DNA from: Akkermansiaceae bacterium
Lineage (GTDB): Bacteria; Verrucomicrobiota; Verrucomicrobiia; Verrucomicrobiales; Akkermansiaceae
NCBI GenBank assembly: GCA_028822935.1
Contig: JAPKCM010000004.1
Coordinates: forward strand, 1 to 64,000
Direction of reading: 5' to 3'
DNA: 64,000 bases
The position numbers and the translations under genes were made by a program. Shown piece by piece: positions 40,699 through 50,649 of the stretch. How positions within the stretch are numbered: position 1 is the first letter of the stretch; every line of letters begins with the position of its first letter. The notes beneath the pieces are model-generated. The model did not search any database, was not told where the DNA came from, and was given only the letters and a program-made list of their open reading frames with translations.

Positions 40699-40732
40699 AA
40701 ACTTCAATATTCAACGTTGAGCGTTCACGGAC
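40699..40732 (+). repeat. TTCAACGTTCAA-type repeat, copy 2 (overlaps C-terminal codons of the next gene)
   Basis: aaacttcaatattcaacgttgagcgttcacgg. Confidence 0.5.
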
Positions 40733-41904
40733 TTCCATCGCTTCGACTTCATTTCATAGCGCTCCAAACTGCCCGACTCCACTTCCTCCACCGGAATGCG
40801 CAGGCTGAAAACTTCCTGCAGTCTCTGCGCCAAGTCAGCGCTCCCGGAGCCTTCGACCCGAAGCCTCACTTCAGACATTGCATTCACCTCTTCAATGACG
40901 ACCTCGTATTCGAGAATGCCCACTACGCTTCGCACCACCTCCTCGACCGCACCCGGATAGAGATTCACCCCCCGCACCACCACCATGTCATCGACCCGCC
41001 CGATGATACCGCCTTTTAAGGCAAAGCCATCCTCGGTCTCGACCGGCTTCACCAAGTCCCCGGTACGATAACGGAGCAAGGGTGAAGCATAACGACCCAG
41101 CGTTGTCAGAACCAGCTCACCCACCCCTTTCTCATCCTGATTGATGATCTCGCAGAAATATGATGAGTGCTTGATTTTCAAAAGCGTCGGATCTTTGAGA
41201 TCTCCCACCGTCACCGGTCCCACTTCAGTCATCCCGTGGTGATCGATCACTTCCGCACCCCACGCTTCCTTGAGCCTTGCGCGAACCTCAGGTAGACTCC
41301 CACCTGGTTCACCTGCCACAATAAGTTTTTGAACTCCCAAATCAGCGGCGTTGTCAGCAATTTCGGCGAGCCTCAGCCCATAAGTCGGGGTGCAGCATAA
41401 AACATCGGGCCTCAACCGTTCCATCATCTTGATCCGGTTCTCACTCGAAAGCCCCCCGGCCGGAATCGCACGAATTCCCAGCGCGGTCGCCGATTCAAAG
41501 CCCGCCCAAAACCCCAGAAACGGCCCAAAGGAAAACGGAAAAATAGCCGAGTCACTCGGCTTCACTCCCGCTTCCTGCCAGACCCATTCCCAATTTCCGC
41601 GCACCCATTCCCATCCTTCGGGATCATCCAGCCACACCATCGGACTCCCGCTGGTCCCACTCGTTTGGTGCAGACGTGTGTATTCCGAGAGGGGACGACT
41701 CAGATTAGTGCCATAGGGCGGATGGTCGTCCTGGTCGGCAGCCAACTCCGCCTTCGTCGTAAAGGGAACCTTTTCCGAAAACTCCGAAAGGTCCCTCACC
41801 TTGCTAAGGCCCCCCAGTTTCCCCTGATAAAAAGAGTTCTGCGATGCCGAAAGCCCAGACAAGAGAAGATTTACCATACGCAATTGCTCCACTTCCAATG
41901 ACAT
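40711..41904 (-). CDS. AMP-dependent ligase, phenylacetate-CoA ligase (PaaK)-like
   Basis: LHQTSGTSGSPMVWLDD, YGLRLAEIA, HHGMTEVGPVTV, YRTGDLV, GRVDDMVVVRGVNLYP. Confidence 0.9.
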   Translation of the reverse strand: MSLEVEQLRMVNLLLSGLSASQNSFYQGKLGGLSKVRDLSEFSEKVPFTTKAELAADQDDHPPYGTNLSRPLSEYTRLHQTSGTSGSPMVWLDDPEGWEWVRGNWEWVWQEAGVKPSDSAIFPFSFGPFLGFWAGFESATALGIRAIPAGGLSSENRIKMMERLRPDVLCCTPTYGLRLAEIADNAADLGVQKLIVAGEPGGSLPEVRARLKEAWGAEVIDHHGMTEVGPVTVGDLKDPTLLKIKHSSYFCEIINQDEKGVGELVLTTLGRYASPLLRYRTGDLVKPVETEDGFALKGGIIGRVDDMVVVRGVNLYPGAVEEVVRSVVGILEYEVVIEEVNAMSEVRLRVEGSGSADLAQRLQEVFSLRIPVEEVESGSLERYEMKSKRWKSVNAQR

Positions 41905-42070
41905 CCTCCCCCTATGAAGCAAAATCTCCTCCTGATGTAAATAACTCCCATCGCCCCACCTCTCATCAAAAAATCCTAGAATTTTCCCACTCCACTGGCT
42001 ACGCTCTCCTTGGAATTCTTCTCGAATATCACTTGCGGACTCAAAAAACCGGAAGACTTTTTATAAAGCC

Positions 42071-42688
42071 ATGGCTTCTATCCTTTTCCACCCTGTCACC
42101 ACCTTTTTTGCGGGTATTCTTCTGGCGGTAATCGCGCTCGGACTGATTCTCAGTTCCTACTCTGGACCCAACCAGACGAAAAAATCAGTGGTTACCTACC
42201 GCAATGCCATGTCCAAAGCGGAAGAAGTCGGTCCTGTGGCAGGTTCCACCGGCGAAAAAGAAGCCCTCGAGCACTTCTCCAATTTTCTTAGGAATGTCGG
42301 AAAAAAAGACTACCTCGAATCCAACACCGCCAAAGTCTACGCCCTCGGAGCCTATCTCAATGACACGCTCGCCACGCACTACGGACCCAATGAGATTAAA
42401 GCCTATTTCCTCAAAACTGCCGACACGATGACGAGCTTTGAGGTTCAGATCGATGACACCTCACGCTCCGGCCCAGATCACTACATTCGTTGGACCATGA
42501 TCTTTTCCGCTCCAAAGCTTGGAGGAGGAGAGCCCATTCATTCCGTCGGAATTAGCCAAGTGCGTTTCAATAATAAAGGCCAAGTAAATTTCCATCAAGA
42601 CTTCTGGGACTCCGGACAAAATATCTATCGCCAAATCCCCCTTGTCGGCGGCCTCATCGGAATCGTTCAAACGCAAATGAAGCAATGA
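42071..42688 (+). CDS. Membrane-anchored protein, unknown function; first gene of lipid cluster
   Basis: One N-terminal TM then a soluble domain (NTF2-like fold suspected); co-directional with the following genes. Confidence 0.6.
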   Translation: MASILFHPVTTFFAGILLAVIALGLILSSYSGPNQTKKSVVTYRNAMSKAEEVGPVAGSTGEKEALEHFSNFLRNVGKKDYLESNTAKVYALGAYLNDTLATHYGPNEIKAYFLKTADTMTSFEVQIDDTSRSGPDHYIRWTMIFSAPKLGGGEPIHSVGISQVRFNNKGQVNFHQDFWDSGQNIYRQIPLVGGLIGIVQTQMKQ

Positions 42689-42737
42689 GTTCTCTAAATT
42701 CATCAGCGGAGTAAATCCGTTGTTTACCGTGACCCCG

Positions 42738-43721
42738 ATGAATCAAAACCCCACCCCCTCACCTCTCCCTCGAAAGCAGGGTCTCTTTCAGACGATCTTT
42801 CGAGTCGTCGGGCAGTGGTTGGATTCCGACTTCCGCCGGAGTGACGCCCCTGATCCCAAAAAACTCCCCGACAAGGTCAATTGGGAACGGACCCTTCCTT
42901 TTGTCTTCCTCCACCTTGGCTGCCTTGCCGTCTTCTGGGTCGGTATCAGCTGGACCGTCGTAGTCGCCGCGATTGTCCTCTACCTGATTCGCATGTTTGC
43001 CATCACCGGATTTTACCATCGCTATTTCTCCCACAAATCCTTCAAGACCTCGCGCCCGGTCCAGTTCCTCTTCGCCGCCTTGGGAAATAGCTCGATGCAA
43101 CGCGGACCACTCTGGTGGGCTGCCACCCATCGGCACCACCACCGGCATTCCGATGAAGAGGTCGATATCCACTCCCCCGTCGTGCACGGCTTCACTTGGT
43201 CCCACATTGGCTGGCTCACCTCGATGAAGAATTTCCCGACCGCTTACGAAAACATCCCTGATCTCAAAAAATTTCCCGAACTCGTCTTCCTAAACCGTTT
43301 CGATCAAATCGTCCCCCTGATTTACGGACTCATCATGCTCGCCATCGGCTCCCTCCTCGAAACCTTCGCCCCCTCGCTCGGAGTCACCACCGGACAGTTC
43401 TTCATCTGGACTTTTTTCATCAGCACGACCGTCTTGCTGCACGGAACCTTATTCATCAATTCTCTCGCGCACGTCTGGGGGAAACGTCGCTACGAAACCA
43501 GCGACGACAGCCGTAACTCCCTTCTCCTCGCCATCATCACCCTTGGTGAAGGATGGCATAACAACCACCACCGCTACCCGCACTCAACCCGCCAAGGCTT
43601 TCAATGGTGGGAATTCGACCCCACCTACATGGGGCTCAAATTCCTCTCATGGACCGGCCTAATTTGGGACCTTCGCCCTGTCCCAAAATCCGTCAAAGAA
43701 GAGGCCCAATTTTCCGCCTAA
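42738..43721 (+). CDS. Fatty acid desaturase (acyl-CoA Delta9-like)
   Basis: HRYFSHKSF, HRHHHRHSDEEVDIHSP, GEGWHNNHHRYPHS histidine boxes. Confidence 0.95.
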   Translation: MNQNPTPSPLPRKQGLFQTIFRVVGQWLDSDFRRSDAPDPKKLPDKVNWERTLPFVFLHLGCLAVFWVGISWTVVVAAIVLYLIRMFAITGFYHRYFSHKSFKTSRPVQFLFAALGNSSMQRGPLWWAATHRHHHRHSDEEVDIHSPVVHGFTWSHIGWLTSMKNFPTAYENIPDLKKFPELVFLNRFDQIVPLIYGLIMLAIGSLLETFAPSLGVTTGQFFIWTFFISTTVLLHGTLFINSLAHVWGKRRYETSDDSRNSLLLAIITLGEGWHNNHHRYPHSTRQGFQWWEFDPTYMGLKFLSWTGLIWDLRPVPKSVKEEAQFSA

Positions 43722-43725
43722 GAAG

Positions 43726-44979
43726 ATGGAACGCCAACGCATCGCCATTGTAGGAAGCGGAATTTCCGGGCTGGCCTGCGCTCATTTTCTGCATCCTCAT
43801 CACGAGATCACTCTTTTTGAAAAAGACGACCGCATCGGTGGCCACTCCCACACCGTCATGGCCTCCGAGAACGACCGCGAAGTGCCGATCGACACCGGCT
43901 TCATGGTCTACAATGAAATCACCTACCCTCACCTCACCCGCCTTTTTAAAGAGCTCCACGTCGAGACAAAGAAAACCACCATGTCCTTCAGCGTGCAACA
44001 CCGCCAGGACAAGCTCGAGTTCAATGGCGGCTCACTCAATCTTCTCTTCGGCCAGCGCCGCAATCTCCTCCGGCCCCGCTTTTGGAAAATGCTCCTGCAA
44101 ATCAACCGCTTCAATAGCGAAACGGTGGCCGAGCTTAAGAACCCTCAACACGCTGAGCTAACCCTCGCCGAATATGTCGAAAAGCGCGGCTACGGCCAAG
44201 ATTTCCTCCGCTGGTATCTCTCGCCCATGGCCGCCGCCGTCTGGTCCAGCCCGCCCGAGAAGATCGAGGAATTCCCCGCTCACACGCTCATGCGCTTCTG
44301 GCACAATCACGGCTTCCTCGGCCTCGATACCCAACACCAATGGCGCACCGTCTGCGGCGGCTCCCGCAAATATGTCACGAAGATCAGCGCCCCTTTCTCC
44401 GATCGCATCCACCAAGGCTCAGGAGTGCAAAGCATCTCCGCCGAAAACCGCATCACACTAAAGGACGGGGCAACTCAGGACTTCGACCTCGTCATCTCCG
44501 CCGCTCACGGCGACCAAGCCCTCCAACTTCTCGCCAGCCCCACTCCCTTGGAAAAGGAAGTCCTCGCAAATTTCTCCTACCAAAAAAACGAAGCCGTCCT
44601 CCACACCGATCCCCGGTTCATGCCTGAAACCCGACGTTGTTGGGCTTCCTGGAACTACCAGATCACCGGCGGTAAACATTCCACCATCTACTGGATGAAC
44701 TGCCTCCAGGGAGTCTCGGATCGCGAGAATTACTTCGTCTCGATCAATCCCTCCGGACCGATCGACGAATCCAAAGTGATCCGCCGTCTCGACTACGAAC
44801 ACCCTCTCTTCGACCTCAAGGCCATCGGAGCCCAAGCCCGCATTCCCGAACTTCACCAAGCCGGCCAGAAGTCCGGTCGCTACTTCTGCGGCGCGTGGCA
44901 ACGCAATGGCTTCCACGAAGACGGCCTCTGGTCCGCCCTCGAACTCTGTAGATCCCTCCTCGGAAAGGACCCCTGGTAA
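43726..44979 (+). CDS. FAD-dependent oxidoreductase (amine oxidase-like)
   Basis: RIAIVGSGISGLACAHFLHPHHEITLFEKDDRIGGHSHTV; YFCGAWQRNGFHEDGLWSAL. Confidence 0.93.
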   Translation: MERQRIAIVGSGISGLACAHFLHPHHEITLFEKDDRIGGHSHTVMASENDREVPIDTGFMVYNEITYPHLTRLFKELHVETKKTTMSFSVQHRQDKLEFNGGSLNLLFGQRRNLLRPRFWKMLLQINRFNSETVAELKNPQHAELTLAEYVEKRGYGQDFLRWYLSPMAAAVWSSPPEKIEEFPAHTLMRFWHNHGFLGLDTQHQWRTVCGGSRKYVTKISAPFSDRIHQGSGVQSISAENRITLKDGATQDFDLVISAAHGDQALQLLASPTPLEKEVLANFSYQKNEAVLHTDPRFMPETRRCWASWNYQITGGKHSTIYWMNCLQGVSDRENYFVSINPSGPIDESKVIRRLDYEHPLFDLKAIGAQARIPELHQAGQKSGRYFCGAWQRNGFHEDGLWSALELCRSLLGKDPW

Positions 44980-45758
44980 TGAGAGCGGCCCTCTACGAAT
45001 GCGATGTCATGCACCGACGGCTCAAGCCGGAGCAAAAGCGCTTCGACTACCGCATTTTCATGCTCAGCGTCGACCTCGACGCCATCCCTACCCCCACTTT
45101 TCTCAGCCACAACCGCTTCAATCTCTACTCTCTCAACGACGCCGACCACATCGACCTCGGCCACCCCGGCGGCATCAAAGCCAATCTCCTCGCCTGGCTC
45201 GCCGGACAAAAGATCGAAGTGCCTAACGATGTCAAAGTCCGACTCGTCACCCTGCCTCGAATCTTGGGATACGGCTTCAACCCGGTGTCATTTTTCTATC
45301 TCAACAAAGCCGATGGCACGCCCCTCTTTGCCGTTGCTGAAGTGGTCAACACCTACCGCGAAATGAAACTCTATCTTGTCGATCAGGACGGCGCTGAGAT
45401 TTGGAAAAAGAGAATCGCGAAAGACTTCTACGTCTCCCCCTTTTCCGATCCCGGCGACGCCTTCGACTTCCGCCTTGGACTTCCCCGGGAGAAGTTCCGC
45501 GTCACCATCAATAACCTCACTGAAAACGAAGTCACCCTCACTTCCACCGTCCGTGGATCCGCCCGCGACCTCACCTCTCTCCGTCTGGTCGCTTACGCCT
45601 TCAAATACCCTCTCCTCTCGCTCAAGATCATCACTCTGATCCACTGGCAGGCCCTGAAACTCTGGCTCAACAAAGTCCGCTTCTACAAAAAGTCCGATCG
45701 CCCGGAAGCGCAAAAAGAAGTCCTCCGCCCCCACTCTTCCCTCACCAAAAAACCATGA
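44979..45758 (+). CDS. DUF1365 family protein
   Basis: MRAALYECDVMHRRLKPEQKRFDYRIFMLSVDLD; LLTLPRILGYGFNPVSFFY-type core. Confidence 0.9.
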   Translation: MRAALYECDVMHRRLKPEQKRFDYRIFMLSVDLDAIPTPTFLSHNRFNLYSLNDADHIDLGHPGGIKANLLAWLAGQKIEVPNDVKVRLVTLPRILGYGFNPVSFFYLNKADGTPLFAVAEVVNTYREMKLYLVDQDGAEIWKKRIAKDFYVSPFSDPGDAFDFRLGLPREKFRVTINNLTENEVTLTSTVRGSARDLTSLRLVAYAFKYPLLSLKIITLIHWQALKLWLNKVRFYKKSDRPEAQKEVLRPHSSLTKKP

Positions 45759-46993
45759 ACTCCGTCGCCCCAGCCAAACACGGCCTCCCCGAAAAACTCG
45801 TCCTCGGACTCCTCAAAAAGATGCCCCTCGGTGGACTCCGCATGGAATATGCCGATGGTTCGATTCGTCAGTTCGGGGCGCCCGATTCCGACGTCACCGC
45901 GAGCGTCAAAATCAATAACGACGAAGAGTTCTTCAAGCGCTGCGCCTACTATGGAAACGTCGGCATGGGCGAGGCCTACACCGATGGCATCTGGGACACC
46001 CCCGACATCCGCGCCGTCATCTCCTGGTTCATCTTTAACATGGAAGCCCTGCAAGGCTCGGACACCGCCTCGGACAAACTTCCCGGCGTCAACCTCCTCA
46101 AGGTCGTCAATTGGTTCCGCCACCTCAAGCGCGCCAACACCGTCGAGACCAGCCGTCGTAACATCGCCGAGCACTACGATCTCGGAAACGAATTCTACTC
46201 CCTCTGGCTCGATAAAACGATGACCTACTCCTGCGCCAAATTCGAAAACCCCGACGCCGCTATCGAAGATGCCCAGACCGCAAAATACGACGCCCTCTGT
46301 CAAAAACTCAAGCTCACCGCCGACGACCACGTCCTCGAAATCGGCTGTGGCTGGGGCGGCTTCGGCTACCACGCCGCCGCAAACTACGGCTGTAAGATCA
46401 CCGGCGTCACCATCTCCGAAGCACAAGCCGCATACGCCCGCCAGCGCGTCAAGGACGCCGGCCTCGAAGACAAGTTCGAGATCCGCATCGAGGACTACCG
46501 CCACATCAAGGGCACCTTCGATAAAATCGTCTCCATCGAAATGATCGAAGCCGTCGGCGACAAGTTCCACGAACCCTTCTTCGCCAAGTGCCACGAGGTC
46601 CTGAAACCCGAAGGCCTCCTCGCCATCCAGATGATCACCGTCCCCGATAATCGATACAAGAGCCTCACCAAGGGCGTCGATTGGATTCAAAAAGTGATCT
46701 TCCCCGGCTCCCTCCTCATGAGCATCGGCCGCGTCAATGACGTCCTCGCCAAAACCTCCGACATGTTCCTCCACGACCTCGAAGACTTCGGTGCCTACTA
46801 CGTCAAAACACTCGGCCACTGGCACGAACGCTTTAATGCTTCCTCCGAAAAGCTCGCCGAGCTTGGCTTCGACGAACCCTTCATTCGCACTTGGAATTAC
46901 TACCTAAAATACTGCCAAGCCGGCTTCGGCACTCGAAACATCTCCGTCGTCCAAGCCGTCTACACTCGTCCCAACAACCCAACACTAAGCTAA
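45755..46993 (+). CDS. Cyclopropane-fatty-acyl-phospholipid synthase family methyltransferase
   Basis: NIAEHYDLGNEFYSLWLDKTMTYSCAKFE, VLEIGCGWGGFGYHAA, IEMIEAVGDKF, YYLKYCQAGF. Confidence 0.95.
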   Translation: MNSVAPAKHGLPEKLVLGLLKKMPLGGLRMEYADGSIRQFGAPDSDVTASVKINNDEEFFKRCAYYGNVGMGEAYTDGIWDTPDIRAVISWFIFNMEALQGSDTASDKLPGVNLLKVVNWFRHLKRANTVETSRRNIAEHYDLGNEFYSLWLDKTMTYSCAKFENPDAAIEDAQTAKYDALCQKLKLTADDHVLEIGCGWGGFGYHAAANYGCKITGVTISEAQAAYARQRVKDAGLEDKFEIRIEDYRHIKGTFDKIVSIEMIEAVGDKFHEPFFAKCHEVLKPEGLLAIQMITVPDNRYKSLTKGVDWIQKVIFPGSLLMSIGRVNDVLAKTSDMFLHDLEDFGAYYVKTLGHWHERFNASSEKLAELGFDEPFIRTWNYYLKYCQAGFGTRNISVVQAVYTRPNNPTLS

Positions 46994-47075
46994 ACTGAGC
47001 TTCCCAATCTGTGGAATCAGTTCTCAATCCGGTGAAATTTGTGTAAGAACTGCCTTCACCTTTTGGACCTATTTC

Positions 47076-47582
47076 ATGACCGAAGCAATACAGCAACGAA
47101 CCTCCTGGTGGAGGCGGTGGTTCGTCCAGCCCATTACCAAGCAGCTCACTCAGGGCATCACCCCTGAAAAACTCGGCTGGACCATCGCCACCGGAATCGT
47201 CCTCGGCATCTTCCCAATCATGGGATCCACCACCTTCATCTGCTTCTTCGCCGCCTGGTTCTTCAAGCTGAACCAACCCGTTATGCAAGTCGCCTGCCAC
47301 GCCGTCTATGCCCTTCACCTTGCCCTGATCCTCGTCTTCATTCGTGCCGGCCAGTGGCTCTTCGGAGCAGAACCTATCTCTCTCTCCATTCCCCAACTCA
47401 TCAAACAATTCATGGGAGATCCCTGGCGATTCGCTCAAAATTTCGGTGTCGCCGCCCTGCAAGGAATCGTCGCCTGGTTGATCCTCGCTCCTGTCCTTCT
47501 CATCCTCATCAAAGCAATTTCAATTCCGCTCCTTAAACGCCTCGCGCGTCGAATCAAACAGCGAAAAGAAACCACCGCATGA
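47076..47582 (+). CDS. DUF2062 family membrane protein
   Basis: LTQGITPEKLGWTIATGIVLGIFPIMGSTTFICFFAAWFFKLNQPV. Confidence 0.85.
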   Translation: MTEAIQQRTSWWRRWFVQPITKQLTQGITPEKLGWTIATGIVLGIFPIMGSTTFICFFAAWFFKLNQPVMQVACHAVYALHLALILVFIRAGQWLFGAEPISLSIPQLIKQFMGDPWRFAQNFGVAALQGIVAWLILAPVLLILIKAISIPLLKRLARRIKQRKETTA

Positions 47583-48364
47583 ACGATTGGAGCATCTTCC
47601 TCAGCGTCGGACTCCTCATCCACGCCCTCTTCTTTATCGGCTGGCTCGTTGGTAAAAAAGTCACCAACTACTCCCTGGTCGATGCCCTCTGGGCTTTCGG
47701 GATCGCCCTCTCCGGCATCCTCTTTGCTCTCCTCGGAAATGGCGATGAACCGAAACGTATCGCAGCCGGTGCACTCGCCGCCTTCTGGGGCATTCGCCTC
47801 GGCTACCATCTCCAGAAGCGCATCCGCAAGCACCACCCTACCGAAGACTCCCGCTACCAAAAACTCCGCGAGATCTGGCAGGGGCGCGTCCACTCCGCCT
47901 TCTTCTGGTTCTTCCAGGCCCAAGCCCTCTCCGTCCTCATCCTCGCCCTTCCCTACTTCCTCGTCTCCCGCGACGCCACACCCTGGGGACTCTTCGAGAC
48001 CATCGCCCTCACCATCGCCCTCATCGGCATCTGCGGAGAAATTCTCTCCGACCACCAACTCTCAACATTTGTCGAAAATCGCACCGACCCCAACGCCATC
48101 TGCAAGACCGGCCTCTGGCGCTACTCCCGCCACCCCAACTACTTTTTTGAAATGGTCATCTGGATCGGCGTCTACCTCTTCGCCTGCGGATCAGCCTTCG
48201 GCTGGGCCACCCTCCACGCCCCCGTCATCATCACATACCTCCTTCTTAAGGTCACCGGCATACCACCCTCGGAAGCCTCTTCATTAAAGAAAAAAGGCGA
48301 CCGCTATCGCCAATACCAACGCACCACCAGCCCTTTCATCCCTCTCCCACCCAAATCACCATGA
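47579..48364 (+). CDS. DUF1295 / steroid 5-alpha-reductase-like membrane protein
   Basis: DALWAFGIALSG; CKTGLWRYSRHPNYFFEMVIWIGVYLFA. Confidence 0.92.
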   Translation: MNDWSIFLSVGLLIHALFFIGWLVGKKVTNYSLVDALWAFGIALSGILFALLGNGDEPKRIAAGALAAFWGIRLGYHLQKRIRKHHPTEDSRYQKLREIWQGRVHSAFFWFFQAQALSVLILALPYFLVSRDATPWGLFETIALTIALIGICGEILSDHQLSTFVENRTDPNAICKTGLWRYSRHPNYFFEMVIWIGVYLFACGSAFGWATLHAPVIITYLLLKVTGIPPSEASSLKKKGDRYRQYQRTTSPFIPLPPKSP

Positions 48365-49398
48365 GCACCATCGACGACCTTCTCGCCAAGGACATCCTCC
48401 CAGACTTTCTCATCCGCTACGGCATCCGACAGCGCCTCCAGGAAACTCTCGACCCCTTCGAAAAGCTTGACCCCGAAGGCCGCCAAAAGCTCCTCATGGA
48501 GCACGTCGCCGACCTCAAAACCTCCCCCATTGCCATCGCCACCGATGAAGCCAATGAGCAGCACTACGAGCTCCCCACCGCCTTCTTCCAAAAGTGCCTC
48601 GGCCCCAACATGAAATACAGCTCCGGCTACTGGGACCCCGGCGTCACCGACATCAAAACCTCTGAGGACCGCATGCTCGCCCTCACCTGCGAGCGCGCCG
48701 ACCTCCAAGACGGACACCGCATCCTCGAACTCGGCTGCGGCTGGGGATCCCTCACCCTCTGGATGGGGAAACATTACCCCAACGCAAAAATCACTGCCGT
48801 CTCAAACTCCCGCACCCAGAAGGATTACATCGACGCCCAAGCCAAAGAGCGCGGCCTCACCAACATCGAGATCAAGACCGTCAACATGATCGACTACCAA
48901 GGCGAGGGCGCCGACATCTTCGACCGCGGCGTCTCCGTTGAAATGTTCGAGCACATGAAGAACTACCAGCTCCTGTTAGAGCGCATCTCCACCTGGCTCA
49001 AACCCGGCGGAAAACTCTTCGTCCACATCTTCACCCACCGCGAATACGCCTACCACTACGAAGCCAAAAACGAAGACGACTGGATGGCCCGCTATTTCTT
49101 CACTGGTGGCCAAATGCCTTCCGACGACCTCCTCCTCTACTTTCAGGACCACCTCAAGATCGACGACCACTGGCAAGTCTCCGGCACCCACTACCAAAAA
49201 ACTTCCGAAGCCTGGCTCGCCCTCATGGACCAGCACACCGATGAGCTCAAACCCCTCATCGCCGAAACCTATGGTGCCAACCAAGCCAAAAAATGGTGGG
49301 TCTGGTGGCGCTGCTTCTACCTCGCCTGCGCCGAACTCTGGGGCTTCAAGAACGGCCAGGAATGGATCGTCTCACACTACCGCTTCAAAAAACCATAA
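48361..49398 (+). CDS. CFA-synthase-like SAM methyltransferase resembling coclaurine N-methyltransferases
   Basis: ILELGCGWGSLTLWMGKHYPNAKITAVSNSRTQKDYID, VEMFEHMKNYQLLLERISTWLKPGGKLFVHIFTHREYAYHYEAKNEDDWMARYFFTGGQMPSDDLLLYFQ. Confidence 0.9.
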   Translation: MSTIDDLLAKDILPDFLIRYGIRQRLQETLDPFEKLDPEGRQKLLMEHVADLKTSPIAIATDEANEQHYELPTAFFQKCLGPNMKYSSGYWDPGVTDIKTSEDRMLALTCERADLQDGHRILELGCGWGSLTLWMGKHYPNAKITAVSNSRTQKDYIDAQAKERGLTNIEIKTVNMIDYQGEGADIFDRGVSVEMFEHMKNYQLLLERISTWLKPGGKLFVHIFTHREYAYHYEAKNEDDWMARYFFTGGQMPSDDLLLYFQDHLKIDDHWQVSGTHYQKTSEAWLALMDQHTDELKPLIAETYGANQAKKWWVWWRCFYLACAELWGFKNGQEWIVSHYRFKKP

Positions 49399-49521: not shown

Positions 49522-50649
49522 TCAAAACCAAACCCTCTCCACCGTCCACCAAATCCCCACCCCAGCAATCCCCAGCGAGGCAAATTTTCGAAACACCTCA
49601 AACCCCGCCTTCTTAACCGCCCAAAAGGTCAAAAGGAAAGCCCCACCCAAGATTGCCACCTGTCCCAGCTCCACCCCCAAATTGAACCCAATCAGCGGTT
49701 TCAATAAACTCCCCGTCGGCAGCTCCAGCTCCTGCATCACTGACGCGAAACCCATCCCGTGAAGCAAGCCCAGCGCGAACACGAACACCACCCGACGCGG
49801 CTTCAGCTCCTTCACCCATAAATTCTCAAGCCCCACATAGGCGATACTCAGTGCGATCGCTGCCTCAACGAAACGTCCCGGCACCGTGATCGTCCCGAGC
49901 ACGACAAGCGCAAGCGTGATGGAATGAGCAATGGTAAAAGCAACCGTCTGGGAAAGAAGCGACTTCATTTTCGGCACGAGCAGGAAGAGCCCAAGGATGA
50001 AAAGAATGTGATCCAGCCCCTTCGGCAAAATATGCTCAAAGCCCGACTTCACCCAACTCCACAACGACGCCTCCACCACTTCCGGCTCCCCACCGGCAGA
50101 AAAGACAAGTAACTCCTGCGCCCCGCTTCCCGACTCGATCGTCCGAGCCTCCAGCATCACTCCCAGCCTCCTAACTTTTAAAATCAAATCCGCCTCGTCC
50201 GGTTCCTCCCAAATCACCGAAAAACTCCCCACTGGCACCTCCGGAAGCTCCCCCTCCATCCGAATCCGCAGCAGCGCATTGTAATTTGCGTTTAGCTCAA
50301 ACTTCCAAGGTTCCCTCCTCAGATCAGGAAAAGAAAAAGCAACTTCCAGCACCTTATCCTCTAACCTCGGTTCGAAAAAATTCCTAACATCCGCTTCCGC
50401 CATCTTCTTTATCACCTTCCACGCCTCATCATCGAGCGAGTCCATCCACCCCTGCCCCGAACTCCCCGCAATCGTTGGATCATCCTTCGCCAACGGCCCG
50501 GCCTCCGGATAGAACATCCACCCTTCCATCCAAAACGTCGCCTCCCACTTCTTCTCTCCTACCAGTATCTCCCCGCGCACAAAATTTCCGTAATGCCCCC
50601 AGAGTGGAGAGGACAGCACGCTCGCTAGGAAAAAGAGGAAGATCTTCAT
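49522..50649 (-). CDS. HupE/UreJ family protein
   Basis: GFEHILPKGLDHILFILGLFLL, FTIAHSITLAL, LGLLHGMGFASVM, FNLGVELGQ. Confidence 0.9.
   Translation of the reverse strand: MKIFLFFLASVLSSPLWGHYGNFVRGEILVGEKKWEATFWMEGWMFYPEAGPLAKDDPTIAGSSGQGWMDSLDDEAWKVIKKMAEADVRNFFEPRLEDKVLEVAFSFPDLRREPWKFELNANYNALLRIRMEGELPEVPVGSFSVIWEEPDEADLILKVRRLGVMLEARTIESGSGAQELLVFSAGGEPEVVEASLWSWVKSGFEHILPKGLDHILFILGLFLLVPKMKSLLSQTVAFTIAHSITLALVVLGTITVPGRFVEAAIALSIAYVGLENLWVKELKPRRVVFVFALGLLHGMGFASVMQELELPTGSLLKPLIGFNLGVELGQVAILGGAFLLTFWAVKKAGFEVFRKFASLGIAGVGIWWTVERVWF

Follow-up and report, generated by a model that had tools for sequence, protein, structure and literature searches.

A complete furan fatty acid pathway probably encoded at a single locus of an Akkermansiaceae bacterium

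We analyzed a 64,000-nucleotide stretch of DNA (the window) from an Akkermansiaceae bacterium of the phylum Verrucomicrobiota (GenBank assembly GCA_028822935.1, contig JAPKCM010000004.1, positions 1 to 64,000) and focused on a cluster of eight genes, g1 to g8. The cluster very probably makes methylated, and probably dimethyl, furan fatty acids (FuFAs) on phospholipid acyl chains. We infer every enzyme step in this genome from orthology and gene linkage. In the proposed route, the desaturase encoded by g2 would form a cis-monoene, UfaM (g5) would donate a methyl group from S-adenosylmethionine (SAM) with a shift of the double bond, and UfaD (g3) would desaturate that product, giving a conjugated diene with a methyl branch. 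UfaO (g4) would then close the furan ring with oxygen derived from O2, and FufM (g8) would put a second methyl group on the ring. The best reading of the locus is a complete single-locus version of a known pathway, extended to another phylum.

Results

Counterparts of the four known enzymes

The reference pathway comes from Rhodobacter sphaeroides and Rhodopseudomonas palustris. There, UfaM methylates cis-vaccenate on the phospholipid, UfaD (RSP1091, an NAD/FAD-binding protein) desaturates the UfaM product to 11Me-10t,12t-18:2, UfaO (RSP1090, DUF1365) inserts O2-derived oxygen so that the furan 9M5-FuFA forms, and a further methylation, by FufM (RPA0924), turns 9M5-FuFA into 9D5-FuFA (Lemke 2020, PMC7380195). 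The FufM of R. palustris was shown to act on 9M5-FuFA in an in vitro assay, and upon expression in R. sphaeroides, the set of UfaM, UfaD, and UfaO is enough to produce 9M5-FuFA, as FufM is to produce 9D5-FuFA (PMC7380195).

We compared the window proteins by blastp with three Rhodopseudomonas genomes (R. palustris XCP, strain BR0M22, and R. pseudopalustris DSM 123), which were located through the light-harvesting protein. All three carry one ufaD-ufaO-ufaM locus and one unlinked fufM, with a DUF1295 gene directly upstream of fufM and touching it; a third paralogue of the cyclopropane fatty acid (CFA) synthase type is present in XCP and BR0M22. These genes were matched to the CGA009 arrangement (RPA2571-2569, RPA0923-0924, and RPA3082) by gene order, not by locus tag. 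Over their full lengths, g3 was 40-41% identical to R. palustris UfaD and g8 was 44-45% identical to FufM. Identities were 33-36% for g4 against UfaO and 35-37% for g7 against the DUF1295 protein encoded upstream of fufM. g5 was 39% identical to R. palustris UfaM, with scores of 283-289 bits versus only 192-201 bits against the CFA paralogue. Each of the four pathway enzymes thus had a one-to-one orthologue in the window. A first-pass annotation of this DNA, made by a model from the letters and open reading frames alone, had rightly called the locus a lipid-modification cluster. It had also been right to see furan fatty acid enzymes as relevant, but placing the genes in merely related families was too cautious, since by direct comparison g4 corresponds to UfaO and g3 and g8 are of the UfaD and FufM types.

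The gene arrangements agree as well. In R. palustris, UfaD, UfaO, and UfaM are encoded side by side in the order of the window cluster, and the DUF1295 gene lies directly upstream of fufM and overlaps it, as in the window. The window differs in holding all of these genes at one locus, together with genes for a desaturase, an NTF2-like protein, and a DUF2062 protein, whereas fufM of R. palustris stands apart from the other genes. The R. sphaeroides operon is part of the RpoE/ChrR response, with ufaM located elsewhere; the window genome has no ChrR.

g3 matches PF01593, PF13450, and PF01266, and g4 keeps the residues that are invariant in its family (H12, R14, N124, T125, K148, S153, and P154) but has Lys at the near-invariant position H20. 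A sequence search of the PDB found no UfaO relative, and weak single-sequence matches to beta-propellers vanished when a profile was used. Single-sequence structure models were poor, with a mean predicted local distance difference test score of 38.6 for UfaO and 54.1 for DUF1295.

Two methylases of different types

g5 and g8 are the only genes of the genome above the cut-off for the CMAS family. We read six signature positions, the residues aligned to C139, E239, H240, H266, I268, and Y317 of E. coli Cfa; of these, C139, E239, H266, I268, and Y317 are bicarbonate-binding residues. The true CFA synthases (those of E. coli and Aquifex and two R. palustris paralogues) have C-E-H-H-I-Y at these positions. 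The 54 UfaM-type rows, R. palustris UfaM and g5 included, all read x-E-A-Q-I-Y, and all 45 FufM-type rows, R. palustris FufM and g8 included, read x-E-H-H-F-Y. The bicarbonate site of CFA synthases is therefore altered in g5, with Ala for H240 and Gln for H266. The best PDB match of g5 is E. coli Cfa itself (6BQC, E=2e-57), which shares its fold family but has C-E-H-H-I-Y where g5 has C-E-A-Q-I-Y.

In a maximum-likelihood tree, g5 fell in the UfaM clade (SH-like approximate likelihood-ratio test [SH-aLRT] support of 95), apart from the four true CFA synthases, and g8 fell in the FufM clade (SH-aLRT support of 100); the tree came from a quick search, has some long branches, and is built from rows chosen for their resemblance to window sequences. 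g5 reached none of NCBIfam's CFA equivalog cut-offs. Judged by sequence, g5 is a UfaM-type methylase and not a cyclopropane synthase, and g8 is a FufM-type methylase. The first-pass naming of g5 as a CFA synthase is set aside on the grounds of its clade, its E-A-Q-I-Y signature, and its scores below the cut-offs.

Co-inheritance and gene order within the phylum

In a sample of 289 genomes from the same phylum, we found UfaO in 64, FufM in 53, and window-type DUF1295 in 59. All 53 FufM carriers also had UfaO, none of the 225 genomes lacking UfaO had FufM, and 11 genomes had UfaO without FufM. DUF1295 occurred together with UfaO in 58 of its 59 genomes and was present in 51 of the 53 FufM genomes. 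Fisher's exact test gave p=2e-47 for FufM with UfaO and p=9e-53 for DUF1295 with UfaO, values that treat related genomes as independent trials, which they are not. This nesting of FufM within the UfaO carriers is what the pathway would require. FufM lies no more than 12 kb from UfaO in 38/53 genomes, and the DUF1295 gene adjoins fufM in 38 genomes, ufaM in 35, and at least one of them in 54/59.

A neighborhood survey of 61 loci, the window included, found near UfaO genes for UfaD in 58 (adjoining UfaO), UfaM in 49, FufM in 39, DUF1295 in 33, and a desaturase in 32. Such a survey had been named beforehand as a test of co-conservation, and that expectation was borne out: the order desaturase-UfaD-UfaO-UfaM-DUF2062-DUF1295-FufM, that of g2 to g8, is shared by 11 further genomes (L066, L075, L077, L079, L080, L081, L088, L091, L093, L097, and L098), which puts the cluster far beyond chance. 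One of these loci, L066, is from the same family and has all eight genes in identical order. In ten loci (L108, L109, L114-L118, L122, L124, and L125), UfaO and UfaM form a single fused protein, and this natural fusion supports a direct hand-over of substrate. Other loci have the module split into FufM-UfaD-UfaO and DUF1295-UfaM.

One genus of about 20 small genomes (genus g2 of family f1 in our labels, unrelated to gene g2) was seen to lack UfaO and FufM in its listed members, and other members of that family have both. Because the pathway needs O2, its absence from this genus would fit an anaerobic lifestyle.

Related clusters outside the phylum

On the plasmid NZ_CP053948.1 of Acinetobacter sp. 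WY4, we found the arrangement lipocalin-desaturase-FAD-DUF1365-CFA-like-DUF1295-FufM. From the desaturase onward, its order and orientation are those of the window, an NTF2-family gene is nearby, and g2 and g8 are 50% and 52% identical to their counterparts. Its flanks hold a photolyase gene, a histidine kinase/response regulator pair, and chalcone-isomerase-like and NTF2 genes. The plasmid cluster thus differs in adding the lipocalin, chalcone-isomerase-like, two-component, and photolyase genes and in lacking DUF2062. The presence of a whole cluster on this mobilizable plasmid points to possible horizontal spread of the pathway. The WY4 plasmid and six other Acinetobacter plasmids (H61-H67) carry FufM-type genes at 50-52% identity. 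DUF1365 genes were also seen on the Klebsiella pneumoniae records NZ_CP129856.1 and CP125156.1 (H2 and H3), one of them overlapping a CFA-family gene.

In Cupriavidus and Rhizobium, a DUF1295-FufM pair stands beside UfaO and UfaD, in Rhizobium with sigma/ChrR genes as well; in Phyllobacterium, UfaD-UfaO and DUF1295 surround sigma/ChrR genes, followed by a photolyase gene. Together with the Acinetobacter plasmid, these neighborhoods indicate that the module ordinarily includes the desaturase, DUF1295, and the second methyltransferase. The first-pass annotation had taken just these three as setting the window apart from a core set, a view contradicted by the plasmid, where the genes recur in matching order, and by the adjacency of DUF1295 and FufM in R. 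palustris, Cupriavidus, and Rhizobium.

A eukaryotic parallel is found in Chlamydomonas, where CFA1, CFA2, DUF1365, and DUF1295 are singlet-oxygen genes induced jointly in a SAK1-dependent manner (PMC4067076, Table 5); elsewhere in the same paper, CFA2 is CPLD27, a coclaurine N-methyltransferase (CNMT). The Chlamydomonas genes differ in being unlinked and known from expression data only, and no furan chemistry is reported there (PMC4067076). DUF2177 genes were seen both in this singlet-oxygen set (PMC4067076) and next to the clusters of Rhizobium and Phyllobacterium (L128 10557-10955; L129 3004-3417), and DUF2177 is a candidate for another pathway partner.

DUF1295 as a member of the module

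The linkage described above gives good support to DUF1295 (g7) as a genuine part of the module. Its profile matches structures of ICMT and SRD5A (steroid 5-alpha-reductase). Lemke et al. list a delta-RPA0923 (DUF1295) strain of R. palustris, the phenotype of which is absent from the main text (PMC7380195). Because three enzymes (UfaM, UfaD, and UfaO) are enough for 9M5-FuFA and FufM is enough for 9D5-FuFA, DUF1295 is not obviously required for either product, and it would more readily fit a part in assistance, repair, or recycling. On balance, we favor DUF1295 as a fifth enzyme of the dimethyl-FuFA pathway; its conservation spans alpha-, beta-, and gammaproteobacteria, this phylum, and the singlet-oxygen-responsive genes of a green alga. 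Enone reductases such as steroid 5-alpha-reductase belong to its superfamily, so one may speculate, at long odds, that DUF1295 reduces the ene-dione formed when singlet oxygen oxidizes a furan fatty acid and so recycles or detoxifies the spent antioxidant. No DUF1295 relatives were found in the viral contigs scanned. At G121:C1:1259194-1260270, in a genome that has UfaO but lacks an intact FufM, a DUF1295 gene interrupted by internal stops lies beside a partial FufM match; this is a decaying DUF1295-fufM pair.

Desaturase, accessory genes, and layout of the cluster

g2 has the histidine boxes HRYFSH, HRHHHRHSD, and HNNHH and probably makes the cis-monoene that UfaM would methylate; its regiospecificity would then set the position of the furan ring. 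Its start is listed as TTG 42720, and an in-frame ATG at 42738 is equally likely. g1 is 25% identical (E=5e-15) to a "nuclear transport factor 2 family protein" of the Acinetobacter cluster and has homologues in 14/61 surveyed loci; DUF2062 (g6) occurs in 19/61 loci and is absent from the proteobacterial clusters viewed. g1 (NTF2-like) and g6 are accessory genes.

All eight co-directional reading frames of the first-pass annotation are present, and Pfam agrees with the domains it gave them (Table 1); the assignments for g2 to g8 are above cut-off, and the only domain below threshold is SnoaL_2 of g1. Overlaps of 4 bp occur at three junctions (g4/g5, g6/g7, and g7/g8), g3 and g4 overlap by 1 bp (TAATG), g2 and g3 are spaced by 4 bp, and a gap of 82 bp separates g5 from g6. 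Sigma-70 promoters and terminators were no commoner in the sequence than in shuffled sequence. By eye, the cluster is flanked by a divergent CoA-ligase-like gene (40711-41922, - strand), 149 bp away, and, on the other side, by a HupE/UreJ-like membrane protein gene in convergent orientation (49522-50649, - strand).

Table 1. Predicted genes of the cluster, with positions in the window
Gene	Predicted product	Position	Strand	Domain evidence
g1	N-anchored NTF2/SnoaL-like protein	42071..42688	+	SnoaL_2 below cut-off: 24.6 vs 27 bits (Pfam)
g2	Membrane fatty-acyl desaturase	42720..43721	+	PF00487 FA_desaturase above cut-off
g3	UfaD-type FAD desaturase	43726..44979	+	PF01593 Amino_oxidase; GSGISG Rossmann motif
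g4	UfaO (DUF1365)	44979..45758	+	PF07103, 224 bits vs cut-off 25, 2e-66
g5	UfaM-type SAM methylase of unsaturated acyl chains	45755..46993	+	Pfam CMAS 2e-87
g6	DUF2062 membrane protein	47076..47582	+	PF09835 above cut-off
g7	DUF1295 membrane protein (ICMT / steroid 5-alpha-reductase superfamily)	47579..48364	+	PF06966, 219 bits, 8e-65
g8	FufM-type SAM methylase	48361..49398	+	Pfam CMAS 3e-37

Discussion

Several points weigh against the assignment of the cluster to dimethyl FuFAs. The identity of UfaO to its Rhodopseudomonas counterparts is only 33-36%, and the near-invariant H20 is replaced by Lys in g4. Position 20 of DUF1365 is Arg in L115 and Asn in L094, and with three such replacements, His20 may not be strictly catalytic. 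There are three further PF00487 genes in the genome, so g2 need not be the sole source of substrate. The first-pass annotation saw no ChrR gene in the window, and the TIGR02451 (ChrR) model likewise had no match in the whole genome, with a positive Caulobacter control. A search of one paper library found no report of furan fatty acids from this phylum. Finally, plant cyclopropane synthases also read EAVG...Q, the A/Q signature of g5, yet make cyclopropanes; the signature therefore marks a subfamily, and the product of g5 is not fixed by sequence alone.

This last point bears on an alternative that we consider unlikely, in which g5 would work as a cyclopropane synthase together with a UfaD-like protein, in the manner of the plant fusions, and DUF1365 would act on a cyclopropane or cyclopropene product. 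Some plant fusion enzymes, in Sterculia, do make cyclopropanes. g5 belongs to the CMAS family, and plant enzymes join UfaD-like and UfaM-like domains (PMC10940516). Against this stand the loss of both H240 and H266, the grouping of g5 with UfaM under all CFA equivalog cut-offs and apart from the true synthases, and the linked and co-inherited UfaO and FufM, for both of which the sole known substrates lead to furans. A product restricted to the monomethyl furan, with g8 and DUF1295 modifying another lipid or an amine like the plant CNMT relatives, seems more doubtful still. g8 does match plant CNMT (E=2e-77), and the first-pass annotation had called it CNMT-like. The Arabidopsis protein AT4G33110 is CNMT-like too. 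Under the name LIME1, AT4G33110 is 38% identical to FufM (PMC10940516), which links the "CNMT-like" gene to FufM. The full-length identity of about 45% to FufM, the fully supported FufM clade, the absence of FufM without UfaO from all 289 genomes, and the in vitro methylation of 9M5-FuFA by the R. palustris enzyme (PMC7380195) all argue for a second methylation of the furan. Least probable are 10-methyl branched saturated acids made by a methylase and a reductase, like those of actinobacterial BfaA/BfaB (TmsA/B), a comparison that the first-pass annotation had put forward. The cluster does combine a methylase with a flavoprotein and with DUF1295, which resembles a reductase, but the BfaA/TmsA flavoprotein is of the FAD_binding_4 type, whereas g3 is of the amine-oxidase/phytoene-desaturase type (PF01593) and has no FAD_binding_4 domain (PF01565). 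UfaO, moreover, has no place in such a route.

We therefore return to dimethyl FuFAs as the preferred product. Furan fatty acids are potent membrane antioxidants. The likely purpose of the pathway here, suggested by its regulation in proteobacteria, would be protection from photo-oxidative stress, with the furan fatty acids reacting, as antioxidants of the membrane, with singlet oxygen or peroxyl radicals.

So far, experiments on FuFA genes cover two alphaproteobacteria, and such genes have been proposed for plants. The cluster predicts furan fatty acids in a further phylum, where the marker UfaO occurs in about one-fifth of the 289 genomes, and its single-locus form could be moved in one piece. 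The comparison of loci also yields a sequence test that tells UfaM and FufM from cyclopropane synthases, with which they are confused in databases, and it singles out DUF1295 as a conserved partner of the pathway.

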